A stretch of DNA of 21,694 nucleotides, taken from IMG/VR virus record IMGVR_UViG_3300022932_000026, positions 1-21,694 of that record, one strand, 5' to 3'. Below the pieces are notes generated by a model, which was not told the DNA's origin, did not search any database, and saw only the letters and a program-made list of their open reading frames with translations. The translations under genes and the position numbers were made by a program. This DNA comes from a virus. Below, in pieces: positions 1,697-21,694 of this stretch. Position 1 is the first letter of the stretch. The number at the start of each line of letters is the position of its first letter.

Positions 1697-1726
1697 AAAA
1701 TATTTTGATTGTAAAGAGAAATATTT
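1697..1726. promoter_or_regulatory. Pair of AT palindromes in the divergent intergenic region (possible operators)
   Basis: AAAATATTTT (1697-1706) is a perfect 10-bp palindrome. AAATATTT recurs at 1719-1726, exactly 21 bp (two helical turns) after the AAATATTT core at 1698-1705. They lie between the leftward replication unit and the rightward terminase gene, where both promoters must be unless transcription enters from outside. A weak plus-strand promoter match is TTGTGG, 17 nt, TATTTT, which overlaps the first palindrome. AT-rich DNA makes such words by chance, so an operator role is only a suggestion. Confidence 0.3.
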
Positions 1727-1743
1727 TCGTTAAGACTGAGAGA

Positions 1744-3483
1744 ATGACCAATTTATATATTGACCAATTCCTAAATCTTGCTAAAGAGCGGTTCTCCATT
1801 GACAGCTTGTCAATGTCGAACACTGAATGGATTTGCAAGAACACCTCGTTGAAGAAACGTCCGTTTTCGTTTAAAGGCTATCACTTTCAGGAAGCCATTA
1901 CGAACGACATGCATCCCAACATGGATGTGATAAAAATTTCACAGGTGGGAATTACGGAAATCCAAATTCGTAAGGCTTTGGCTTTTCTGTTGCGTAACCG
2001 TGGCACCTCGCTGATTTTTTCGTTGCCAAATGAAGACATGCAAGGACGCGTAGCCTCGACGCGTGTAAAACCAATCGTGTCAGCCGATAAAGTATTCAAC
2101 TCACCGATGGACAAAGCAGCCAAGGTGACGCGTTCACTTGAGATCATGCAGTTCGATCAATCGTTCCTGTATTTGGTACAAGCGTCCGAAGCATCTGCGA
2201 CATCCATTCCGGCAGACGCCGTGTTTAATGATGAGGTCGATTTATCAGACCAGAAAATTCTCTCCCTGTTCAACTCACGGATGCAGAACTCAGATTGGAA
2301 AATCTCCCAGCGATTTTCAACACCGACATTCCCGGCGTTCGGGATTGATCTCAATTACCAAACGACGGATCAACATAATTATCTGTGTAAGTGCAACAGC
2401 TGTGGTCATTGGAACGATCCCCAGTTTGATCACCGCTTCCTTCACATCCCCGGATTGCCCCAAGACATTCCATTATTCGAAGTGACCAAAGAGGCTTACA
2501 GCGAAACACTCGATTTCGTCAACGCGTATGTCATGTGCGAACGCTGCCAAGCACCACTGGAATTGGGCAATCCTGAGAACCGCCAGTGGATTGCGAATTT
2601 CCCCAGCCGTGTCAACAGCCGTGGCTATAAGATTTCTCCTTTCGCTACCGAGCGTTTATCTTTGGATTACATCTTCGGCCAGATGTGGAAGTATCAGGAA
2701 ACCGAATTCATCCGTGGTTTTTATAACACAGTGTTGGGCCAAGCCTATTCGGATGGGAACATCCAAATTCCGGTCGAAGATATTCTGGCCTGTATGACCA
2801 CACACTCCGCGCAGATCACACCCGACAAACATGAGAACCTGTGGCTGGGAATTGATATGGGTCAAACCTGTCACGTGATTGTCGGGCGCGGGAACGACGA
2901 AGACAATCTGGAAGTCATCCAGATGCACCAAGTGAACGTGTCGGGTATTGTACCATGGGTCGAAACATTTTGTGAGACTTACAATGTTGTTGGCGGTTGC
3001 GTTGACCGTCACCCGTATGAGCCGACAGCGCGGGACATCTTCAAAGCAAGTGGTGGGAAAGTCCTGCCGGTTGAATACCGTGGCTTGAAAGACACCAACC
3101 TCGTGCGTGACCATGAAGACAATGTCATCCATGGACAGGCCAATCACACCTTCTTCCTTGATAACTTCGCCGCTAAAATCCGCAAGCGCAAAATCCGCAT
3201 CTCCGGTTACGGCAACCAGAAGTCTGTCTATTCACAGCATTTGCGCGAGATGGTGCGGAACGAAGAGCCGGGCAAACCCGCGCAATGGGTGAAACTCAGC
3301 GGGGAGGATCACTATCTTCACGCCTCTGGCATGATGGTGATCGCGCCGAAGTTCGCCGAGCTGATCCGTTTCCACAACAAGACCGACCAGCGTTCGACAA
3401 TCTTTGCCAGTGTGATGGACCCGAATATCCTTTCGAGCGGTTTGACAGGCTTCACCAAGGTGGGTCTAATAACAAATAACTAG
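1744..3483 (+). CDS. terL: Terminase large subunit (lambda gpA-like packaging ATPase/nuclease)
   Basis: This is the DNA packaging motor and cutter; it docks on the portal. From the ATG at 1744 it has 579 aa, close to lambda gpA (641). The ATPase half shows 'KISQVGITE' (K64-E72). As in lambda gpA, the Walker A lysine is at the start of the loop rather than in the classical place. 'VFNDEVD' with D163/E164 is the Walker B and catalytic carboxylate. A zinc ribbon typical of the gpA family follows: C217-x2-C220 and C265-x2-C268. The RNase H-like nuclease shows 'GIDMGQT' (D371), 'CVDRHPYEP' (D421) and 'GEDHYLHA' (D522) as metal ligands. A TTG reading from 1705 is also open but has no ribosome binding site. 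The site at 1744 is itself weak. It is the first gene of the rightward block; the portal follows after 54 nt. Confidence 0.93.
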   Translation: MTNLYIDQFLNLAKERFSIDSLSMSNTEWICKNTSLKKRPFSFKGYHFQEAITNDMHPNMDVIKISQVGITEIQIRKALAFLLRNRGTSLIFSLPNEDMQGRVASTRVKPIVSADKVFNSPMDKAAKVTRSLEIMQFDQSFLYLVQASEASATSIPADAVFNDEVDLSDQKILSLFNSRMQNSDWKISQRFSTPTFPAFGIDLNYQTTDQHNYLCKCNSCGHWNDPQFDHRFLHIPGLPQDIPLFEVTKEAYSETLDFVNAYVMCERCQAPLELGNPENRQWIANFPSRVNSRGYKISPFATERLSLDYIFGQMWKYQETEFIRGFYNTVLGQAYSDGNIQIPVEDILACMTTHSAQITPDKHENLWLGIDMGQTCHVIVGRGNDEDNLEVIQMHQVNVSGIVPWVETFCETYNVVGGCVDRHPYEPTARDIFKASGGKVLPVEYRGLKDTNLVRDHEDNVIHGQANHTFFLDNFAAKIRKRKIRISGYGNQKSVYSQHLREMVRNEEPGKPAQWVKLSGEDHYLHASGMMVIAPKFAELIRFHNKTDQRSTIFASVMDPNILSSGLTGFTKVGLITNN

Positions 3484-11815: not shown

Positions 11816-12286
11816 ATGACCGAACCAACACCTACCGAGTATGTTGACGTTAACGATTATATTACTATTCCAGTGAAGGGTCCCAAACAGGACAAAACTG
11901 AAGATCAAGAATTTTTCATGTCGGCTGGTTTGATCCGCCGTCTGGTCAGTATTTTACAACACCGGGGCGATGTCTCTGAAATGTATACTGATCCTCTTAT
12001 CCAAGAATTGCTTATCCTTGAGACTGTTACACCACGTAATGAGCGGGGTGTTGACCTTGCTACCCAGACAACTCTTGATGATTATGTGATGACCCAAGCC
12101 GACGCCGATAAACTTTTGGCATGGATCGAAGGCCACGTGTTCAATTTTTTTATCAAGATGGGGACACTCGTGAGCCAAGCAGCGGCAAATCCGAACAGCC
12201 CGCTACAGAAATTACTGCACTCAGCGACTGGTTTAAAGGACTTAGCGCAGACGAAGCTGTCTGTTGGGGCTTCGGATGTAAATTAA
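11816..12286 (+). CDS. Tail assembly chaperone, short form (lambda gpG-like)
   Basis: 156 aa, with AGGGGA as ribosome binding site about 8 nt before the ATG. The body is acidic and helical ('FFMSAGLIRRLVSILQHRGD', 'ADADKLLAWIEGHVFNFFIK'), as expected of gpG-type chaperones, which coat the tape measure and recruit tube protein but are absent from the virion. A T7 run at codons 110-112 is a -1 slippery site linking this frame to the one that ends at 12501. The residues after the slip point ('IKMGTLVSQAAANPNSPLQK' onward) are only in the short form. Position between tail tube and tape measure is diagnostic. Confidence 0.87.
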   Translation: MTEPTPTEYVDVNDYITIPVKGPKQDKTEDQEFFMSAGLIRRLVSILQHRGDVSEMYTDPLIQELLILETVTPRNERGVDLATQTTLDDYVMTQADADKLLAWIEGHVFNFFIKMGTLVSQAAANPNSPLQKLLHSATGLKDLAQTKLSVGASDVN

Positions 12287-12501
12287 GTGACATTCCCAAG
12301 CTTTTGTGGCACAGTACACAGAGGGATATACAAACGCAACTGAAGCTGAAACTGGGATTTGAGATGGCTTATTCAAATCAGGATTTCCAAGCGGTTGCTT
12401 ATGTTGTTTCTCGCGCCCTCGGTGGCGAACCAAAGAAAACGGTTGAGCCAAGAAATATTGATGAGGCCGTCATGCAATTGGATGCGGTGTTTGGGAATTA
12501 A
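11816..12501 (+). CDS. Tail assembly chaperone, frameshifted long form (gpGT-like)
   Basis: Read 11816-12151 in the first frame (112 codons), then slip back one base and continue 12151-12501 (116 codons plus stop), giving a 228-aa fusion. The T-part reads 'YQDGDTREPSSGKSEQPATE' through 'LSDIPKLLWHSTQRD' to 'EAVMQLDAVFGN', with an acidic/Pro/Ser linker followed by a helical domain. The T-part has no good ribosome binding site of its own; its first ATG (12121) lies upstream of the slip site inside G. The fusion is made in small amounts in lambda, where the G:GT ratio matters and the T domain binds the tube protein. The tape measure gene begins on the base after this stop. Confidence 0.85.
12128..12151 (+). 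other. Programmed -1 ribosomal frameshift site (T TTT TTT)
   Basis: Seven T residues (12145-12151) lie as T-TTT-TTT relative to the first frame, so both tRNAs re-pair perfectly after a -1 slip. GAAGG at 12128-12132, 12 nt upstream, could act as a stimulatory Shine-Dalgarno-like element. I see no convincing downstream hairpin. Confidence 0.82.
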
Positions 12502-15500
12502 ATGAGTACGGAAAAGTTAAACATTGATACCGTTGTCAATACTTCGCAGCTTGAAAAAGCTGCGAAGCAAATGGATAAAATGGCTAAGTTTGCTGAAGTT
12601 GCAAACGTCAGTGTTAAACGTTTGAATGAACAGCTGGCGAAGACTGAAGAACGGTTACGCCAAGCCGGTACCACTCAGAAAAAATTTAATGACAGTCTCC
12701 GTAATACTTCTTCTGGATCGACAGGGGCGCAGGATAAGCTCGCGCAACAAGCTGGTAATGCAAAAAACGTAGCAGCTAATCTCCGTAATACAAATGCGGA
12801 ACTTGCACGTACTGTTCTGCTTGAAGAGAAACGTGCTATAGCCGGTGAACGCGCTCAACGGGTTTTAGCCTTAGCGACAACCAAACAGGTTCAGCTTGCT
12901 CGCACAGTCAGTGATCTTCGCTTACAGCAGGAAGCCCAGCAAATTCGTGTTGATCGTGCGGAAAGCACCTATCATAAAAATTCAACAGCTCGTAATCAAA
13001 AGCAGTTATCCGACGAACGTCAGTTGTTGCAAGCGATCAAGAACCGTACGACGGAGATTAATAAGGCCGCTGCTGCATCTGCCCGTCCGGCTAAAGTTCC
13101 TTTAACACCACAGGAAAAAGGCGCACAAAAAGTCGAGAACCTTTTCGGTGATGGTGGTGCTGCTCTGTTTAAAATTCAAGCAGGATTGCTGCTGAATTAT
13201 CAGATCATGAACCAGTTCATTAATGCGTTCCAATTTGGTACAAAATTTGTTGTTGACTTTGATGCGTCATTAAAAGATTTACAAGCCACCGTCGGTATTA
13301 CGAATACCGAAATGGAAGGTTTGGGTAAAAAGATTATTTCTGTTTCTCAAGGAACGAAATTCTCTGCCGTTGAAGTTGCTAAAGCTGCCGTAACATTAGG
13401 TCAGGCCGGTTTTTCAGCACGTGAAATTGGTGCGTCGCTTGAAGGTGTAACCTTGCTGGCAACGGCCACCGGTAGTGATCTTGCTACGTCGGTGGATGTA
13501 GCTTCATCGGTTGTTACCGTGTTTAATCTTCGTGCTGAAGACATGACCCATATCGCAAACGTTGCAACCACAGCGATTAATGAAACGAAACTGACAATCG
13601 ATAAACTCGCGCAAGGTATGCAATACGCTGGTAACATTGCAGCCGAAGCTGGTCTGACGTTTGAAGAAACAACCGCTGTCTTGGGCGCAATGGCTAATGC
13701 TGGTATTCGTTCCGGCTCTACATTGGGTACAGGTTTGCGTCAGGTCTTGATTGAGCTGATGAACCCAACTGAAAAACTTCGTAAGAAATTAGGCGAAGTT
13801 GGTTTGAGTGTTGAAGATGTTGATATTAAAGCACGTGGCTTTACTGAAGTCATGGAAACATTGCGCGACGCTGGTTTCAGTGCCAGCACTGGATTTGAAG
13901 CTTTAGAAACACGTTCTGCCGCTGCGTTTGCTGCGATCCAAAGCAACCCCGCAATCTTGAATAATTTAAAAGAAGCATTTCTTTTAACGAACGCTGCGGC
14001 TAAAGCCAATGAAACGCAGATGGACTCCCTAAAAAATACCACCTCTCAATTTGCAGGGGTATTAGGTGTCACATTCGTTCAAGCTTTTGAACCTGTCAAA
14101 GTTGCACTGCGCGAATTTTTACAGTTGATGACCTCGCTTTTAAAAGCGTTGAATGAAAATAAAACTCTTTTACCTGTTATTGGTACCCTTATTACTGGAC
14201 TTGTTTCTGCAACAGCTTTAGGTAGCCTTTCTAAACTTGTTTCTAATCTTGTTAAAATGAGTGCAGTGTTTGGTCCGATGGGTTTAACAGGCGTTGCAGC
14301 TTTTACGAAGGTTGCCGCAGCGGTTACTGTATTGGTGGGAGCCGTCGCACTTTTAAATGGTTCATTTGACAGTACGAAAATTAAACTTGATCAGTTACAA
14401 GCTGCAGCTGATAAAGCTAAAGGTGATAGCGATAGCACCGACACAACTCTTGGATCATTGCAAGAAGCACGTGATCGTTTGTTGACACGTTCTGGTGCCT
14501 TGAAAGGTAAGCCAAACGAATTGTTCACTGAAATGGTGGCTCTTCAAACACAGTTCGGTCAGTATGGTTTAGAGTTAGATACAAGCGTCACACCAAGTGT
14601 TGAAAGCTTGGCAGGTGCTGTAGATAAATTGATTAAGAAAATGCAGGACCTTGCTGCAGTACAAGCAAAAACAAAAACCACAACGCAAAGCAGTTTACTG
14701 CAAGGTATTGCAGCATCAACACCCGGAGGATTTAAAAGCTATATTGCTAACGATCCTTCGCGTGATATTGCCAAGCAAGTAAGTGATTTTCAAAACGTAG
14801 ATTTTAATCAAAGCAGTCCAACTCAACGTTTAGATTTTAAGAAGCGATTGAGTAGCTTCCGAGATACATTATTCGGAATGATCAATAAAAGTGCTGATGA
14901 ATTAAAAGCATATGAAACGGATTTGGATGCTACAAGCTTCTTTAGCAAATTTAAAAAAGAAGATTTGAAATCTAAAATCGCTAACGTCAAGCTGGTTGCT
15001 GAACGTTTAGAGACTGTAAAAAATGTTGTTGATCAATTACAAGCGGGTATCAACATTGTCGATATCGACGGTGCTGGAGAAGTTGGTAAGAATTTCTCAC
15101 GTACGAAGTTAGGAGCATCTGTTAATTCAGTATTGACGCAAGGTATTATTGATCTTAGTACCGAAAAAGCAAAACTGCGTGATGACTCCACACCTAAACA
15201 ACGTCTTGAAGTTGAGAAGCGTTTGATGGAATTGAGCAAGGCTCTTCGTCAAACTATTCTGACGTTAATTACAAACGGTAAAGATGAAGCCCTGTTACAA
15301 TTACAGGAATTCATTGGTAAGCCTGTAACTGAAAGCGAACTGGAACCGGTCCTCGCAGGTGTTGACGCGCAGATCGAGGCACAGGTTAGTGCAAACAACA
15401 GTGCTTTCGATACCAGTGCTAAAGAAACTGTTGATACTTTTAATCACGTGTTGGAAGCTGCGAAGAACGCACTGGATGCAGTTAAAGAAAAATTCGCTCA

Positions 15501-16608
15501 TGTTGCTGACAAGATTGAAACTGAGATCGCCCGCTTTGATGCGATTTCGGCGGAGAGCGTTGAGGGCGGTGGGTTGTATGGTCGTTATAACGATCAGGAG
15601 CTGAAGGTTTTTGGTGACCGTCAGAAGGGTCTGAAGACCGACGCGCTGAAGGCTAAGATTGCTGCTTCCTACGATGTAGAGGCCGGGCTGCGAAATGTAA
15701 TTGGCGCACAAGGTGCGATTGTTTCTAAACGCACCCAACAAGCTGGAGTAAACCCTTCAGATAGTGATGCGATCCAAGCCCGTATGGCGGCTGAGAAGGA
15801 TATGATCGCTCTACAGAATGAGCTTAACAGCGTTTTGACCGAACGCGCCCGTAACCAAGACTTGGTTAATGCGGCAGAAGGTCGTTCGATTGAAGCCAAC
15901 ATTCCCTTGCGTGAACAGATGCGCGGGATCATCGATGATTATCGTACTCGCCTTATAGTTGAAAGTGAGTGGGCTTACAATTTGCGGACCAATGTAACTG
16001 GAGCATTGGACGCCGGGCGTAACAGCATGTCCCAGTTCTTTCAGGATGCCGTTAGTGGGACGAAGTCAGTTGGTTCGGCCTTTGCTGATATGGCGAAAAG
16101 CATCATCTCCAGCATGCTTAAAATCGCGTCTGATAAGCTTGCTGCCCAAGCCTTCGGCTTTATGGCGGACATCGGTCTGTCGATCTTTGGTGGATTGGGT
16201 AAAGGTCGCGTTACGGGCGGAGGTCAAACTTATGGTCCACCGGCCCCTTCGATGTATACGGGTGGCTCAATCCGCCGTGCCGCGGGTGGTGCTGACATTG
16301 GTCGTGACACTACACCGATCCTCGCCCGCCCCGGTGAGTTTATCATGCGGAACTCCGCCGTGGATATGATCGGTGCCGATAACCTGTCTGCCTTGAACGC
16401 TATGGGCAACCGCCGAGTGTCCCAAGCCACAGAGGGTATTCCGTCCCCGGCGAATGAGAATATGGGCGGTAGCGTTCTGAACGTGTACGTTGTAAGCCCG
16501 GATCAGAAGCCGTCCCTCAGCAAGGCTGATGTTCTGGTGACGATCTCCGAAGACATCATGCGCGGTGGTAACACGAAGAAACTTATTAAACAGGTGGTCT
16601 TTCAATAA
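12502..16608 (+). CDS. Tail tape measure protein
   Basis: 1368 aa; the longest gene here. Residues 1-215 are coiled coil ('LEKAAKQMDKMAKFAEVANV', many Gln/Ala/Arg heptads). Residues about 253-535 match the TP901-type tape measure core ('DFDASLKDLQATVG', 'QGTKFSAVEVAKAAVTLGQA', 'GSTLGTGLRQVLIELMNPTE'). Two hydrophobic stretches at about 555-577 and 593-620 are candidate membrane-spanning segments, as in other tape measures that help DNA cross the host membrane. Residues 625-1100 are mostly helical. The C-terminus has a lambda gpH-like part ('FFQDAVSGTKSVGSAFADMA', from about 1177) and the common 'RDTTPILARPGEFIMRNSAV' segment. Tail length scales at about 0.15 nm per residue, giving roughly 200 nm. 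The start directly follows the chaperone stop; the stop overlaps the next start (TAATG). Codon use shifts from AT-rich to GC-richer near 15500. Confidence 0.92.
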   Translation: MSTEKLNIDTVVNTSQLEKAAKQMDKMAKFAEVANVSVKRLNEQLAKTEERLRQAGTTQKKFNDSLRNTSSGSTGAQDKLAQQAGNAKNVAANLRNTNAELARTVLLEEKRAIAGERAQRVLALATTKQVQLARTVSDLRLQQEAQQIRVDRAESTYHKNSTARNQKQLSDERQLLQAIKNRTTEINKAAAASARPAKVPLTPQEKGAQKVENLFGDGGAALFKIQAGLLLNYQIMNQFINAFQFGTKFVVDFDASLKDLQATVGITNTEMEGLGKKIISVSQGTKFSAVEVAKAAVTLGQAGFSAREIGASLEGVTLLATATGSDLATSVDVASSVVTVFNLRAEDMTHIANVATTAINETKLTIDKLAQGMQYAGNIAAEAGLTFEETTAVLGAMANAGIRSGSTLGTGLRQVLIELMNPTEKLRKKLGEVGLSVEDVDIKARGFTEVMETLRDAGFSASTGFEALETRSAAAFAAIQSNPAILNNLKEAFLLTNAAAKANETQMDSLKNTTSQFAGVLGVTFVQAFEPVKVALREFLQLMTSLLKALNENKTLLPVIGTLITGLVSATALGSLSKLVSNLVKMSAVFGPMGLTGVAAFTKVAAAVTVLVGAVALLNGSFDSTKIKLDQLQAAADKAKGDSDSTDTTLGSLQEARDRLLTRSGALKGKPNELFTEMVALQTQFGQYGLELDTSVTPSVESLAGAVDKLIKKMQDLAAVQAKTKTTTQSSLLQGIAASTPGGFKSYIANDPSRDIAKQVSDFQNVDFNQSSPTQRLDFKKRLSSFRDTLFGMINKSADELKAYETDLDATSFFSKFKKEDLKSKIANVKLVAERLETVKNVVDQLQAGINIVDIDGAGEVGKNFSRTKLGASVNSVLTQGIIDLSTEKAKLRDDSTPKQRLEVEKRLMELSKALRQTILTLITNGKDEALLQLQEFIGKPVTESELEPVLAGVDAQIEAQVSANNSAFDTSAKETVDTFNHVLEAAKNALDAVKEKFAHVADKIETEIARFDAISAESVEGGGLYGRYNDQELKVFGDRQKGLKTDALKAKIAASYDVEAGLRNVIGAQGAIVSKRTQQAGVNPSDSDAIQARMAAEKDMIALQNELNSVLTERARNQDLVNAAEGRSIEANIPLREQMRGIIDDYRTRLIVESEWAYNLRTNVTGALDAGRNSMSQFFQDAVSGTKSVGSAFADMAKSIISSMLKIASDKLAAQAFGFMADIGLSIFGGLGKGRVTGGGQTYGPPAPSMYTGGSIRRAAGGADIGRDTTPILARPGEFIMRNSAVDMIGADNLSALNAMGNRRVSQATEGIPSPANENMGGSVLNVYVVSPDQKPSLSKADVLVTISEDIMRGGNTKKLIKQVVFQ

Positions 16609-16991
16609 TGGAAACCTTTAATTTCCCATATCACACCTTTGAAACGACCAATCCTGAAAGTGGTATTCGTGGACAATTCGGGGGGAATTATGTGTTCACA
16701 GCCCCGCCGTCCGATCCTGATCAACGGATTTTCACCTTGCATTTCTCGGTCATGAAGTTCTACGTGAACGGTATGGGAAACGTTGATGAGACGATCAACC
16801 CAAAACTGAACATGTATGCGCTGATTAAATTTTATCAAGCGCATAAGCTCCATTCAAGTTTCTTGTATAATCATCCGGTGCATGGTACGTTGATCTGTAA
16901 GTTTCAAACCCCCTTGACGGAACCCGAAGGTATTCGGGGCGGCGGCGGGGCTGTAAAAGAATTCACTGTTAGCCTGATTGAAATTCCGTAG
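16608..16991 (+). CDS. Minor tail protein, gpM-like tail-tip component
   Basis: 127 aa, starting within the tape measure stop codon. It occupies the lambda M slot (after H, before L) and has the same overall shape as gpM. There is an N-terminal strand pair, a central strand-rich part ('QRIFTLHFSVMKFYVNGMGN'), a helix ('LNMYALIKFYQAHKLHSSFL') and then 'HGTLICKFQTPL' with a final 'VKEFTVSLIEIP' strand. gpM sits at the distal end of the tail tube and links it to the tip. Similarity is of layout and position; I see no diagnostic motif. Confidence 0.65.
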   Translation: METFNFPYHTFETTNPESGIRGQFGGNYVFTAPPSDPDQRIFTLHFSVMKFYVNGMGNVDETINPKLNMYALIKFYQAHKLHSSFLYNHPVHGTLICKFQTPLTEPEGIRGGGGAVKEFTVSLIEIP

Positions 16992-16999
16992 GAGATAAT

Positions 17000-17440
17000 A
17001 TGGCCGTTACGTCCACCCCATTCCGTAGTTTTCTCCTTGCTGTCGGGACAAACGACCTTGATTTAACCGCTGATACCTTCAAAATTATCTTGGTGAATGC
17101 CTACACATTTGATGTGACGCATGATACCTTCTCCGATATTTCTGCAAATGAGATTGCTAACGGCAACGGTTACACAACCGGTGGTCAGTCCCTATCGAAC
17201 GTCAGTTGGGCATGGAACTCTGGTATTTCCAAATGGAAATGGGATGCTGATGATCTGACATGGACTGCTGTGGGTGGGGCTATTGGCCCAGCGAACGGTG
17301 CTATTATCTTTGACAACACGACCAGTGATAAAAAACTGGTCGCCTTCATCGATTTCGGTCAGTCTGAAACTGCCGGACAAGATACAGATTTTAAAATCAC
17401 TTTCGGAGCAAACGGTATTTTTACCTTCGGACTGGTTTAA
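17000..17440 (+). CDS. Small beta-rich phage protein, paralogue 1
   Basis: 146 aa; TAGGAGA overlapping the preceding stop is the ribosome binding site. It opens 'PFRSFLLAVGTNDLDLTADTFKIILVNAY', has 'ANGNGYTTGG' in the middle and ends in a Gly/Asp-rich strand region ('DTDFKITFGANGIFTFGLV'). The same plan, with the same central motif, occurs in the gene at 17503: N-terminal 'F.sF...', 'DT.K..L.N', 'ANGNGYTTGG', 'W.a.GaiGP..gai.'. I know this kind of protein from phage tail regions but not a proven function. All-beta character and position suggest a virion or tail-tip surface protein. Trp content (4 in about 30 residues near 70-95) is unusually high. Confidence 0.75.
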   Translation: MAVTSTPFRSFLLAVGTNDLDLTADTFKIILVNAYTFDVTHDTFSDISANEIANGNGYTTGGQSLSNVSWAWNSGISKWKWDADDLTWTAVGGAIGPANGAIIFDNTTSDKKLVAFIDFGQSETAGQDTDFKITFGANGIFTFGLV

Positions 17441-17675
17441 GGAATTCATTGACACAACCGGCAGACCCTGCCAATTTAAATCAACACTAATGGAGAGCAT
17501 GGATGGCCAGTTCATTTAATAAATTTCAATCGTTTGTCGAGGCATTGGCTGAAAAAGTCCACAACCTTGGTAGTGACACTTTAAAGGTTGTGTTGACAAA
17601 CACTACACCTGTTGCAACGAACACACAGCTGTCGAACATTACCCAGATCGCTAACGGCAACGGTTACACAACCGG
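17156..17675 (+). repeat. 26-nt exact direct repeat shared by the two paralogous genes
   Basis: 26 identical bases occur at 17156-17181 and 17650-17675, in the same reading frame of each gene, encoding the shared 'ANGNGYTTGG' motif. The copies begin 494 bp apart. The rest of the two genes is much more diverged at the DNA level, so the block is either under strong constraint or was recently copied by gene conversion. Confidence 0.85.
17449..17480 (+). promoter_or_regulatory. Weak promoter candidate between the paralogues
   Basis: A perfect TTGACA (17449-17454) lies in the 62-nt gap between the two paralogous genes. The nearest -10-like box is TTTAAA (17475-17480) at a long 20-nt spacing, with a small GGCAG/CTGCC hairpin (17460-17472) between them. 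Too poor to call firmly. Confidence 0.2.
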
Positions 17676-17922
17676 CGGCGCGACGGCGACAACTTCATCC
17701 TCAGCCCAATCCGCTGGTACCTATAAACTGGTGCTTGCAGATGTTGTTTGGACAGCCTCTGGTGCGATGGGTCCATTCCGTTACGCTGTTCTTTACAACG
17801 ACACCGCAACGAACGACGAACTGATTGGCTGGTGGGATTACGGCACAGCTATCACCTTGGCTTCAGGCGAGACATTCACAGTTGATTACGACGGCACCAA
17901 TGGTGTCCTTACTCTGGTATAA
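17503..17922 (+). CDS. Small beta-rich phage protein, paralogue 2
   Basis: 139 aa; GGAGA at 17492-17496 precedes the ATG by 6 nt. It opens 'FNKFQSFVEALAEKVHNLGS', then 'DTLKVVLTNTTPVATNTQLS', 'ANGNGYTTGG', 'VVWTASGAMGPFRYAVLYND' and 'DELIGWWDYGTAITLASGET'. It is the more typical member of the pair, since the 'GPFRYavLYND..lIGwWDYG' run is the part I recognise from uncharacterised phage structural-region proteins. It is predicted all-beta, with no signal peptide or membrane segment. It is probably a virion surface or tail-associated protein, perhaps with diversified binding relative to its neighbour. Function unknown. Confidence 0.78.
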   Translation: MASSFNKFQSFVEALAEKVHNLGSDTLKVVLTNTTPVATNTQLSNITQIANGNGYTTGGATATTSSSAQSAGTYKLVLADVVWTASGAMGPFRYAVLYNDTATNDELIGWWDYGTAITLASGETFTVDYDGTNGVLTLV

Positions 17923-17933
17923 AGGAAAGCGTC

Positions 17934-18194
17934 ATGACAGACTTTCAAAAATTAAAAATTGAATTGGAAACGGAACTGGCAGCTTTGACAAAGAAAGCTG
18001 ATCCGATCCGTACTGAGTTGGACAAACTGAAAGAACAAATTCTTCCAGTGGAAATGAAAATTCGCACGTTACACAATCAGTTGAAAGAAATTGAGCAACC
18101 TCATAAAGCAGAACTGGTCATGAAGATCGCTGCCATTGATGATGTGTTGAAGAATTTCCCATCTCCTGTTGCGGAAACTATCGATCACAAATAA
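17934..18194 (+). CDS. Small coiled-coil protein, 86 aa
   Basis: AAAGGA precedes the ATG at 17934. Nearly the whole protein is one charged helix with heptad character ('LKIELETELAALTKKADPIR', 'LDKLKEQILPVEMKIRTLHN', 'IEQPHKAELVMKIAAIDDVL'), ending in a short Pro-rich tail. Prolines at about 24, 38 and 56 probably break it into a helical hairpin. It lies between the paralogous pair and the large tail-tip gene; its stop codon is inside a hairpin that covers the next ribosome binding site. It may be a chaperone or trimerisation partner for the large protein, as small coiled-coil proteins next to fiber genes often are, but nothing proves this. Confidence 0.72.
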   Translation: MTDFQKLKIELETELAALTKKADPIRTELDKLKEQILPVEMKIRTLHNQLKEIEQPHKAELVMKIAAIDDVLKNFPSPVAETIDHK

Positions 18195-18217
18195 CCTCTA
18201 ACCCAAGGGAGAGGTTA
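18192..18217 (+). promoter_or_regulatory. Hairpin hiding the ribosome binding site of the large tail-tip gene
   Basis: TAACCTCT (18192-18199) and AGAGGTTA (18210-18217) are perfect 8-bp complements around a 10-nt loop that can partly pair further (CCC with GGG). The Shine-Dalgarno sequence GGGAGAGG (18207-18214) is buried. The left arm starts at the stop codon of the upstream gene (TAA, 18192-18194) and the right arm ends on the A of the next ATG (18217). A ribosome finishing the upstream gene would open it. Confidence 0.6.
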
Positions 18218-21200
18218 TGACTGTACCAAATGTAGGTCATCGATACCAAGTCGGTAAATCAGCGTCGTCGTTTTCGTTATCTATGGCGTCGATGAATATT
18301 GGCGACTTGATGATCCTTGCAGTCGAAACATCCAACCAAGCGGTAAGTACCCCAGCTGGTTGGACAATCATGACTGGATCACCATGGTCACTTGGTAGTG
18401 CGGCAAACGTAAATGGTATTCGTTTAAGTGTATTTTATAAATACGCAACATCCACATCTGAAAGTGTAACGGTTCCTGACTCTGGTGATCATCAGACGGC
18501 TATTTTATTCAGCACAACTGACGCGCGTTCAACAAATCCTTTTCATGACATTGTTGTAAGCACCGGAACAACAGGGACAACCGTTTCTTCTCCAAGCTTA
18601 AATAATCAATACAATGACTCTGCGTATGTTTTTATTCCCGCCACTGGTGCTGATAGTACAACACCTTTTACGACAGCATCTAACAGCACAATTGGTACCC
18701 TTAGCCGCTTAGATGGTACAGGATCAACCGATGGTAATGGTGGTGGAGTAACAGTTTTTTATGCTGACAATAATAATGTTCCTCCACTGGGTACGATTGC
18801 TGGATCATCTTCTACTGCACCAACTTCTGCTCCGTGGATTGGTTTAGCATTTATGATCCGAGGTACAACACCTGTCGGTATTACAGCAAGCACTGGAAGT
18901 TTCCAAGTACAACCTTATGGTTATGGAAGTGCTGATCTTTATAAAACAAACTCTGACGGCTCTATTACGATTGAAGATTTTGAAGCTAGTTTTGAGGCAG
19001 GAGATACTAAATTATCTTGGGCTGCTGACGATAGTACAAACAGTATAAACTATAATACCGACAGTGTTATTTCCGTTGGAAGTTATAATAGTTCACATCA
19101 AACTGAAGGCCTGTATTGCTGGGATGTTATACAAGATAACGGAACCGATCCTGGTTCCGGTGGAACAGATATTTTATTAGACAGTTTTGAAACTATCACA
19201 AGTAACGTACCAACAGGAGGTGTGGCAGGAATTACATGGCGTAATGCTGCAAATATTGGAGCCTTGGTTCTTAACGGAACTCGTTCTGCTGTAACGACAT
19301 ATCACTCTGAAGGAACTAAAGCTCTCCAGATTACAAAAACCCTTGCAGGTGATGCCATGGGACTGGCATCTGGAGATTGGATTGGTAGTTCTCCTACAAA
19401 TGCTTCGTATATTGATATAACAGGGTATAATGTAGCGTATGATGTTTGGACAACATCACCAAATATTCAAGCCGTGCTATATGTATTAGATATTAATGGT
19501 GTTGTTGTTGCTGGAAATGCAGGAACGATTATTCCAGATGATGGTACACTTACAACTATTGTTGCAGGTCCAGTTGATTCCGGGGATTTAACACAAGTTA
19601 TTGTAGCTATCATCTTTTTTGGGGATGATGGAGTTAATACTGTTTATGTGGATAAACTTCGTTTAACAACAAGTGAAGGAGGAGGGAATCGCGCGCCGAT
19701 ATTAGTTGGAGAAACAATTTCCCAGAATATTATTTTAAAGAAAGATTATTTAGCTGTCGATATAAATCCATACGTTATTCCTTCAGGAGGTCTAATTTCT
19801 GTTGGGTTATATGATCCTTTTACTGATACAGTTGTTGATAATATAACAACTAATTCTACAGGACAACAAACTTTATCATTTGACTTATCATCCTATACGA
19901 CAGGTGATTTTTCTAGTGGTGCTGAAATTATAATCTCTGCGGCAGATTTAAATACTTATCCAGTTGTTCCTTCCGCTTATGGTGAACATAAATATTACAT
20001 TGATAATATGCGGATCACGGATAGCGTCGCGCTCGCGTATACGCTTGAAGCGACAACTCAATCGTTCGCACTCACCGGTCAGTCAGTCAATTTTAATCGT
20101 ACCTATAAATTAGAAGCTGCACCTGCAGCACTGACAATGACAGGTCAGAATGCTTCGTTGATCTCAGCGCGTTCGATGATCAGCAATCCCGGAACATTTA
20201 TTTTCACTACGATTGATGCTCAGTTAAATAAAGGTGGAACACTTGCGGCTTTGCCGGGAGCTTTTGCTTTGACCGGGCAGACAGCGCAGCTGTCACGCAC
20301 AGCTATTCTGACAGCCGATAGTGGTACGTTTACGTTTAGTGGTATCTCTGCAAATCTACTAAAACAATTTAATTTCTCTGCATCCTCTGCAGCCTTTACG
20401 ATGACAGGCCAAGCAGCAGGTTTGTTCAACACGCGTAAGATTGAAGCCCCGTACGAACCGTTTACCTTAACCGGTCAGACGGCGACAATGGTCTATGGTC
20501 GTAAAGGTTATTCAGATGCCGGTTCGTTTGCCTTTACAGGGCAAACTGTCAACTTGAAGAAAGTGCATTACGTTTATCCACCGACGATCCAATTCGGTTT
20601 TCAATCCATTGCGCCAAAGATCGCTACCGGGTCTTCAGCCCTTCCGCCAGAAATTGAATTTGAAGTTGATTTCATCGTCCCTTACTTTGTCGGCGAGCGT
20701 CCATTCACGCGCGTCTCTCCGCCGACACGTGACTTTGCGTTTGACTTTCCAGATACCGAGGTCGCAACAGGCGTTAATGCTGTTGCTCCGACAATCGAAT
20801 TCAAAATGCGAACCGGTATTCAGTATTTCAAAATCCAGCTGGTAGCCTGTGTCGGTTCACCGGCTCCGGTTCAGCATATTGCAGACAGTAAGAAACTGGA
20901 AGCCGATGCCTATGTCGAACTGTTCGATATTATTTTGTCCGACAATGTCACGCGTATTTTGCTGAAGCAGAACAGCAACGTGACATGGCAGGGTCAGACA
21001 TACGAAGGGACAGGTATTCAGATTGAGGGTGTTGCGCGTTATGCCGATGATCAATTATCTCGTCCGAAGCTGACGATCTTTAACCCGCAAGGTGTGTTTT
21101 CATATTTGATCGATCAAGGTCATTTAGAAAATGCGATTGTGAAACGTACTCGTGTTCTGAAAGAGCATATTGACGCCGACCTACCCGTCTATCGTGTCGA

Positions 21201-21342
21201 GCAATGGCGCGTGGCGCGTGTTGCGAATGTTAAAAAGGGCTTTATTGGTTTAGAACTCCGTGGTATGTTAGACGGACAGAACTTCCTGACCCCCGGTCGG
21301 ATGTTTATCCCACCTGATTTCCCGACTGTGAGCCTGAACTAG
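18217..21342 (+). CDS. Large tail-tip protein: adhesin-like modules and tandem repeats fused to a lambda gpL-like C-terminus
   Basis: 1041 aa in five parts. Residues 1-222: beta module of the 'GDLMILAVET...TPAGWTIMT...FYKYAT' type seen in phage surface proteins. About 229-602: Ser/Thr/Asp/Asn-rich segment with jelly-roll-like stretches ('DFEASFEAGDTKLSWAADD', 'ILLDSFETITSN', 'NVAYDVWTTSPNIQAVLYVL'), possibly carbohydrate binding, and AT-richer at DNA level. 610-784: eight tandem repeats of about 22 aa with core 'F.LTGQ.A.L'. 788-868: about four 'PP.I.F.F' repeats. 869-1041: gpL-like domain ('NVTWQGQTYEGTGIQIEGVA', 'RPKLTIFNPQGVFSYLI', ending after 'LTPGR'). lambda gpL (232 aa) continues into an iron-sulfur cysteine domain; here the protein stops without it. 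The next gene is gpK-like, which supports the gpL call. The fusion puts receptor-binding-type domains on a tip assembly protein. Confidence 0.8.
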   Translation: MTVPNVGHRYQVGKSASSFSLSMASMNIGDLMILAVETSNQAVSTPAGWTIMTGSPWSLGSAANVNGIRLSVFYKYATSTSESVTVPDSGDHQTAILFSTTDARSTNPFHDIVVSTGTTGTTVSSPSLNNQYNDSAYVFIPATGADSTTPFTTASNSTIGTLSRLDGTGSTDGNGGGVTVFYADNNNVPPLGTIAGSSSTAPTSAPWIGLAFMIRGTTPVGITASTGSFQVQPYGYGSADLYKTNSDGSITIEDFEASFEAGDTKLSWAADDSTNSINYNTDSVISVGSYNSSHQTEGLYCWDVIQDNGTDPGSGGTDILLDSFETITSNVPTGGVAGITWRNAANIGALVLNGTRSAVTTYHSEGTKALQITKTLAGDAMGLASGDWIGSSPTNASYIDITGYNVAYDVWTTSPNIQAVLYVLDINGVVVAGNAGTIIPDDGTLTTIVAGPVDSGDLTQVIVAIIFFGDDGVNTVYVDKLRLTTSEGGGNRAPILVGETISQNIILKKDYLAVDINPYVIPSGGLISVGLYDPFTDTVVDNITTNSTGQQTLSFDLSSYTTGDFSSGAEIIISAADLNTYPVVPSAYGEHKYYIDNMRITDSVALAYTLEATTQSFALTGQSVNFNRTYKLEAAPAALTMTGQNASLISARSMISNPGTFIFTTIDAQLNKGGTLAALPGAFALTGQTAQLSRTAILTADSGTFTFSGISANLLKQFNFSASSAAFTMTGQAAGLFNTRKIEAPYEPFTLTGQTATMVYGRKGYSDAGSFAFTGQTVNLKKVHYVYPPTIQFGFQSIAPKIATGSSALPPEIEFEVDFIVPYFVGERPFTRVSPPTRDFAFDFPDTEVATGVNAVAPTIEFKMRTGIQYFKIQLVACVGSPAPVQHIADSKKLEADAYVELFDIILSDNVTRILLKQNSNVTWQGQTYEGTGIQIEGVARYADDQLSRPKLTIFNPQGVFSYLIDQGHLENAIVKRTRVLKEHIDADLPVYRVEQWRVARVANVKKGFIGLELRGMLDGQNFLTPGRMFIPPDFPTVSLN
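20044..20829 (+). repeat. Two families of protein-level tandem repeats in the large tail-tip gene
   Basis: 20044-20571 encodes eight units of about 22 residues with the pattern 'F.(L/F/M)TGQ.A.L'; units 3 and 5 are degenerate ('FIFTTIDAQL', 'FTFSGISANL'). 20578-20829 encodes about four units of 'PP.I.F.F....P...G'. The repeats are diverged in DNA, so they are old duplications rather than a recent expansion. Such repeats commonly form stacked beta segments in phage fibers. Confidence 0.75.
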
Positions 21343-21343
21343 A

Positions 21344-21694
21344 ATGACAGATAAATCGATCCGGCATGAGAAGCTTAATGGAGGTTATCTCCGTTACGAT
21401 CATTTGCTTGGTAAATCATTCGAGCATGGGAAGCAGGATTGTTATACAATCCTTGCAGATTTGTTTAAAGATAATTTGAATGTAACTTTGACAGCCTACG
21501 CCCGGCCCGATGACTGGTGGATCGACGATGATATGGACTTAGATTTATATCGCCAGAATTATGAGCGTGAAGGTTTTCAATTAGTCGATATGCAGCATGT
21601 GCGTGACTTGCGTATTCTCGACGTTGCTTTGATCTCTATCCCTGATCCCCGTAATCCGAAACGTACGGTGATTAATCATTGTGCCATTTATGTT
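21344..21694 (+). CDS. NlpC/P60-type cysteine peptidase, gpK-like tail-tip protein (runs off right edge)
   Basis: An ATG at 21344, 1 nt after the preceding TAG, opens a frame of 117 codons to the window end. It reads 'MTDKSIRHEKLNGGYLRYDH', then 'FEHGKQDCYTILADLF' with C33 as the candidate catalytic cysteine (the 'G..DCy.l' motif of the NlpC/P60 family). 'TVINHCAIYV' follows, with H112 as the catalytic histidine in the usual 'H.aiyv' strand. The third residue would lie beyond the edge. In lambda the equivalent (C-terminal half of gpK) follows gpL and is needed for tail-tip assembly; such peptidases are thought to cut peptidoglycan cross-peptides during assembly or entry. The ribosome binding site is weak, so translation probably depends on coupling with the upstream gene. 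Confidence 0.88.
   Translation, partial: MTDKSIRHEKLNGGYLRYDHLLGKSFEHGKQDCYTILADLFKDNLNVTLTAYARPDDWWIDDDMDLDLYRQNYEREGFQLVDMQHVRDLRILDVALISIPDPRNPKRTVINHCAIYV

Follow-up and report, generated by a model that had tools for sequence, protein, structure and literature searches.

Does a tail-tip protein of the gpL type carry its own adhesin arms, and if so, how was such a gene assembled? The question is raised by a gene near the end of the virus record IMGVR_UViG_3300022932_000026, which we analyzed over its whole length of 21,694 bases (the window). The record is a single metagenomic contig and covers the phage only up to a truncated K gene. A first-pass annotation, made from the letters of the sequence, had placed a gpL domain at the end of a 1041-residue protein, behind a long adhesin-like and repeat region.

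A gpL hub domain ends a 1041-residue protein

The gene is one continuous open reading frame on the plus strand (18217–21342), encoding 1041 aa without internal stops; its architecture, an adhesin-like extension followed by gpL, was also found in a second contig, L075. Its ATG is preceded by the Shine-Dalgarno-like sequence AAGGGAGAGG (18205–18214, plus strand), a strong ribosome-binding site with a duplex energy of -8.4 kcal/mol. Near the gpL domain, start codons lack such a site, and this includes the only in-frame ATG there, at 20806 (+0.1 kcal/mol). Within the repeats, TTG codons at 20251 and 20269 do follow Shine-Dalgarno-like sequence, but starts there would still yield a chain of repeats and gpL. 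As there is no good internal start for gpL, each hub subunit should bear the extension, unless the chain is cut later.

The gene occupies the L slot. It is bordered on the 5' side by a homologue of the distal tail protein M (16608–16991, plus strand; phrog_34212, E 1.5e-37) and on the 3' side by a homologue of K of the NlpC/P60 type (21344–21694, plus strand; phrog_30, E 1.6e-21), which is truncated at the end of the record. With the tape measure gene at 12502–16608, the order tape measure, M, L, K fits, and the additional cassette described below lies between M and L. The intact K homologue in the related L014 matches NLPC_P60. M of the window is 39–47% identical to M of JWF and 2-1 (Achromobacter), Seuss (Caulobacter), Lumi (Xylophilus) and KB12-38 (Pseudoalteromonas).

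The hub domain itself spans residues 881–1041 (20857–21339, plus strand) and was recognized by several methods. Pfam PF05100 (Phage_tail_L) matched residues 918–987 with E 7.9e-6 and 25.8 bits, barely above the cut-off of 25; phrog_18 matched residues 886–1031 with E 8.5e-20; and an HMM of the clade, of which the window protein is itself one of the seeds, matched residues 881–1041 with E 1.9e-72. An AlphaFold model built from 21 related sequences had a core pLDDT above 90. Its best fold match in the PDB was lambda gpL (8iyk_L, E 2.3e-9), with a TM score of 0.61 by a query that includes about 35 unstructured N-terminal residues; the next matches were tail-tip proteins from T1, Sf11, JBD30, Chi and the Rhodobacter gene transfer agent. 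The assignment of the C-terminal end to gpL in the first-pass annotation was thus borne out by Pfam, PHROGs and the structural comparison with lambda. No relative turned up when bacterial genomes were scanned with the gpL domain.

That annotation had further noted that the iron-sulfur part of gpL seems to be missing. Indeed, no cysteine is found in the last 160 residues, the lambda-type C-terminal four-cysteine 4Fe-4S domain is absent and the protein ends with the HDI; the absence is, however, normal in the sampled clade, whether gpL is fused or not. A separate gpL of 153–209 aa is encoded in 30 of 32 distinct relatives used for the tree, none of them with the Fe-S part. Since the standalone proteins also lack it, the absence is, judged from these sequences, a property of the group and not a result of the fusion. 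Some other gpL homologues have likewise been reported to lack the cluster (PMC13243795), so that the cysteine domain marks a subtype rather than the HDI family as a whole. The size of about 230 residues given earlier for gpL holds for lambda but not for the clade of JWF and Seuss. For example, JWF, 2-1, Seuss, Lumi and KB12-38 encode a separate gpL of 153–165 aa close behind M, mostly ending in FPxVSL or similar.

The extension consists of distinct modules

The N-terminal beta domain (residues 1–215; 18217–18861, plus strand) belongs to a family present in about 20 virus contigs. An HMM built from 14 other virus contigs, with the window excluded, matched residues 1–204 with E 2.6e-36, pLDDT was mostly 75–95 and matches in BFVD were to phage minor tail proteins and unnamed proteins. 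For residues 1–786, the N-domain included, the PDB held no fold match at E <= 0.001, and hence no carbohydrate-binding or known receptor-binding fold; in the underlying model, 1 of 16 alignment rows (the L063 repeats) was misplaced over the N-domain, which may have lowered confidence. Residues 216–598 (18862–20010, plus strand; GC3 0.16–0.21) are beta-rich at best. The family search gave no match, and between about residues 240 and 600 strands are predicted mainly at 404–485, where pLDDT is about 50–60.

The next module comprises eight F.LTGQ-type repeats of about 22 residues each (residues 608–782; 20038–20562, plus strand), of which six carry TGQ and two are degenerate. They are 36% identical to repeats of L063 (BLASTP E 1e-21), and a tblastn search with residues 590–842 found matches in two other phage kinds (E 1e-14). 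Four PP/AP...F.F motifs, read directly from the protein, form the linker to gpL (residues 783–862; 20563–20802, plus strand); L075 has about one. Most of the module order proposed from the letters alone therefore stands, namely the surface-type beta module, the eight repeats (two of them degenerate) and the four proline-phenylalanine motifs. The jelly-roll-like segment placed at about 240–600 was not confirmed, because residues 216–598 are mostly below pLDDT 50. Collection scans with the repeats alone or the N-domain alone found nothing, and the scan succeeded once the sequence of Erythrobacter phage XM05 was added. One repeat match among 289 genomes (G169) was dropped, as its source is an autotransporter-like protein.

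Parts of the extension occur as separate genes

Between M and the fusion gene the window encodes two phrog_644 proteins, at 17000–17440 (plus strand; E 1.4e-23) and 17503–17922 (plus strand; E 9.3e-20), and an 86-aa open reading frame (17934–18194, plus strand) that is probably a coiled coil, given scattered weak coiled-coil matches only. The first phrog_644 protein shares 39% identity with its counterpart in G001, which occupies the same slot, and the second is 52% identical to the protein that precedes an N-domain/repeat protein in L063. The phrog_644 protein is a possible partner of the adhesin. As a side observation, the two copies are adjacent paralogues with 38% identity; in L063 and L064, other phrog_644 genes lie before or beside those of N-domain proteins, and further ones sit in the M–L slot of G001 and upstream of the L075 fusion.

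In L063, a short contig in which neither M nor L was detected, the phrog_644 protein is followed by a 516-aa protein composed of the N-domain and LTG repeats. The N-domain and repeats form a protein of their own there, so the cassette exists elsewhere as separate genes. G001, the 81-kb contig of L014, is the unfused sister of the window. Its M–L space holds a phrog_644 protein, a long fibre-like open reading frame running over the contig ends, which we infer to join from a shared repeat, and open reading frames of 417 and 115 aa.

In the tree, the grouping of L014 with the window and L075 is supported (99/99), and the branch uniting only the two fused members, the window and L075, is weak (87/39). 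In L014, 47 residues precede the gpL match and align weakly with the linker. L014 may never have been fused or may have been split again. Overall, the fusion was rare in our sample (2 of 32 relatives). Among 398 Pseudomonadota genomes, we found 26 genes with PF05100; none has a long N-terminal extension, and two have an internal insertion of about 190 aa.

A second fusion shares the repeats and gpL domain but not the outer modules

Looking for other gpL genes with a long N-terminal extension, as the first-pass annotation had proposed, did yield one: L075 encodes an 809-aa protein ending in gpL, with a phrog_644 gene upstream and K downstream. Residues 610–1040 of the window protein align with residues 423–808 of L075 (431 residues, 39% identity, E 3e-88), straight through the junction between repeats and gpL. 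On comparison, the outer modules of the two proteins showed no recognizable relation. The window gene also changes composition at this border. The best single change point lies at codon 597/598 (position 20008; log-likelihood gain 33.9), with GC3 of 0.22 for codons 1–597 and 0.46 after, and adjoins the start of the L075 homology at residue 610. In the L075 gene no jump of this kind was seen; the gain was 6.0 and the change ran the opposite way. The position of the break beside the start of homology suggests that the head of the window protein was exchanged onto a conserved chassis of repeats and gpL.

This pattern helps to weigh the alternative that the extension serves as a structural decoration or spacer, for stability, aggregation or weak unspecific sticking rather than specific host recognition. 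That the repeats are of low diversity, that the N-domain family, to which no function is assigned, is common in phages and that no lectin or CBM fold was matched would all suit a spacer. However, outer modules that differ between the two fusions while stalk and gpL are kept are what is expected of host-range parts, and the composition points to exchange, so that we consider a mere spacer unlikely. Alternatively, the chain could be cut during assembly; the extension would then be a pro-region or an adhesin that is attached separately, and the virion would contain a normal gpL of about 160 aa. No protease domain or self-cleaving module was recognized in the chain by Pfam and PHROGs searches, and the repeat–gpL junction is kept between the window and L075; we therefore regard cleavage as rather improbable, even though all other sampled relatives function with a standalone gpL and the parts are encoded separately in the sister G001. 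Finally, a merger of adjacent genes by sequencing or assembly error, conceivable for a single metagenomic contig whose parts are separate genes in G001, was set aside as highly improbable: L075 carries the same repeat–gpL fusion with homology through the junction, which is a strong argument against an assembly accident and largely refutes it, and start codons near the gpL domain lack a ribosome-binding site.

A candidate adhesin arm on the tail hub

The reading we favor, and hold to be somewhat probable, is that the long gene of a mobile adhesin cassette, situated between M and L in this lineage of JWF/Seuss-like siphophages of ~80 kb, was fused in frame to gpL, placing adhesin arms on the hub. 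The cassette, a phrog_644 gene and an N-domain/LTG-repeat protein, would have entered between M and L, and the in-frame fusion would have brought adhesin and hub into one polypeptide. Three copies of the HDI combine with gpJ in lambda to make the last tail ring, which is stacked on six gpM (PMC10721106). By analogy with lambda gpL, the C-terminal HDI is predicted to sit in the last tail ring with J, below the M ring, in three copies with C3 symmetry. The repeats would form a beta-rich stalk and residues 1–600 three lateral heads that may contact the host surface before J engages, and exchange of heads could then alter host recognition.

In this protein the gpL domain is C-terminal to a long adhesin-like and repeat region within one gene; a function in adhesion or receptor binding is suggested by position and analogy. 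Of the earlier proposal that the tip protein itself carries side fibers or receptor-binding modules, the presence of the modules in the same chain holds, while no known binding fold was matched. That gpL acts as a carrier, with an N-terminal repeat stalk and swappable heads on every subunit and thus three arms at the last ring, could in our judgment equally well prove right or wrong. The fused L075 retains a 1078-aa J-like protein and a further fibre-like open reading frame after it, and receptor binding may thus be mainly the task of parts other than the arms; judging from L075, the fusion probably adds to other fibres and does not replace them.

The fusion protein is a decorated tail-tip protein, and such decorations are already known on Dit/M-type proteins, inside or behind hub domains and at the end of J. 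Lambda gpL (PF05100, 8iyk_L) resembles it in the HDI fold, the slot between M and K and the predicted place in the last ring; in contrast, the window protein has 880 residues before the HDI and no C-terminal 4Fe-4S domain. The standalone proteins of JWF, Seuss and Lumi share the gene order and the short HDI without the Fe-S part, but are unfused (153–165 aa), and the M–L space of these phages has no phrog_644 cassette. The hub protein of roseophage R4C (RcGTA gp13) is of the gpL type and has an oligosaccharide-binding domain as part of its own chain (PMC10276861). In that protein of 291 aa, the additional domain (residues 162–243) is placed behind and within the iron-binding part, whereas in the window the added part is at the N-terminus and about five times the size of the hub domain. 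Similarly, the evolved Dit of skunaviruses is a tail-tip ring protein enlarged by added modules and has been shown to aid adsorption (PMC10688798). The carrier in that case is the hexameric distal tail protein, with internal insertions of carbohydrate-binding folds, while here it is gpL/HDI, and M is separate and normal-sized. Distal-tail decorations have also been reported in LSH1 (PMC13243795). In EBPR siphovirus 2 gp72 (JF412297; L007 5017–7776), F.LTGQ-type repeats precede another domain that may be hub-related. This C-terminal domain is different (phrog_8917, residues 410–919), its hub role coming from a weak phrog_177 hit (E 0.073), and gp72 had no sequence match in the PDB.

In the literature searched, we found no exchangeable adhesin mounted on the hub through the N-terminus of gpL. 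If gpL does mount exchangeable heads, one could predict from sequence where the host-contacting parts sit and in how many copies, and adhesins not yet recognized may be concealed among genes annotated as "minor tail protein L". As a single clade contains two fused contigs and one unfused sister, the fusion of a tail-hub gene is open to direct study.

Other enlarged tail-tip genes and features of the window

Several other tail-tip genes among the relatives were enlarged in other ways. In two prophages, L073 (1434–2681) and L074 (1480–2748), the HDI of gpL is interrupted midway by about 190 additional aa, while the cysteines are kept; in L073 the insert looks by eye like a beta domain of the carbohydrate-binding-module type and has no Pfam match. 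The gpL homologue of Synechococcus phage S-CBS4 (L017 6064–7461; 465 aa) has a long extension that is C-terminal, not N-terminal. Within the clade studied here, M is doubled in Acinetobacter phage EAb13 (L016 7019–7921) and in L043 (7632–8534); M of L044 (7248–8222) contains about 200 inserted aa, and M of L032 (8001–8915) has a C-terminal Calx-beta-like part (E 2.4e-5, just under Pfam's cut-off).

In the window itself, the overlapping open reading frames 11816–12286 and 12121–12501, located before the tape measure gene, resemble a tail-assembly chaperone pair made by frameshifting. Such a pair, produced by ribosomal frameshifting, is annotated in Seuss, and a T-rich stretch, TTTTTTTA, is found at 12145 of the window. 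The open reading frame for the terminase large subunit of the GpA ATPase type (1705–3483) is listed with a TTG start, and its true start may lie further in.
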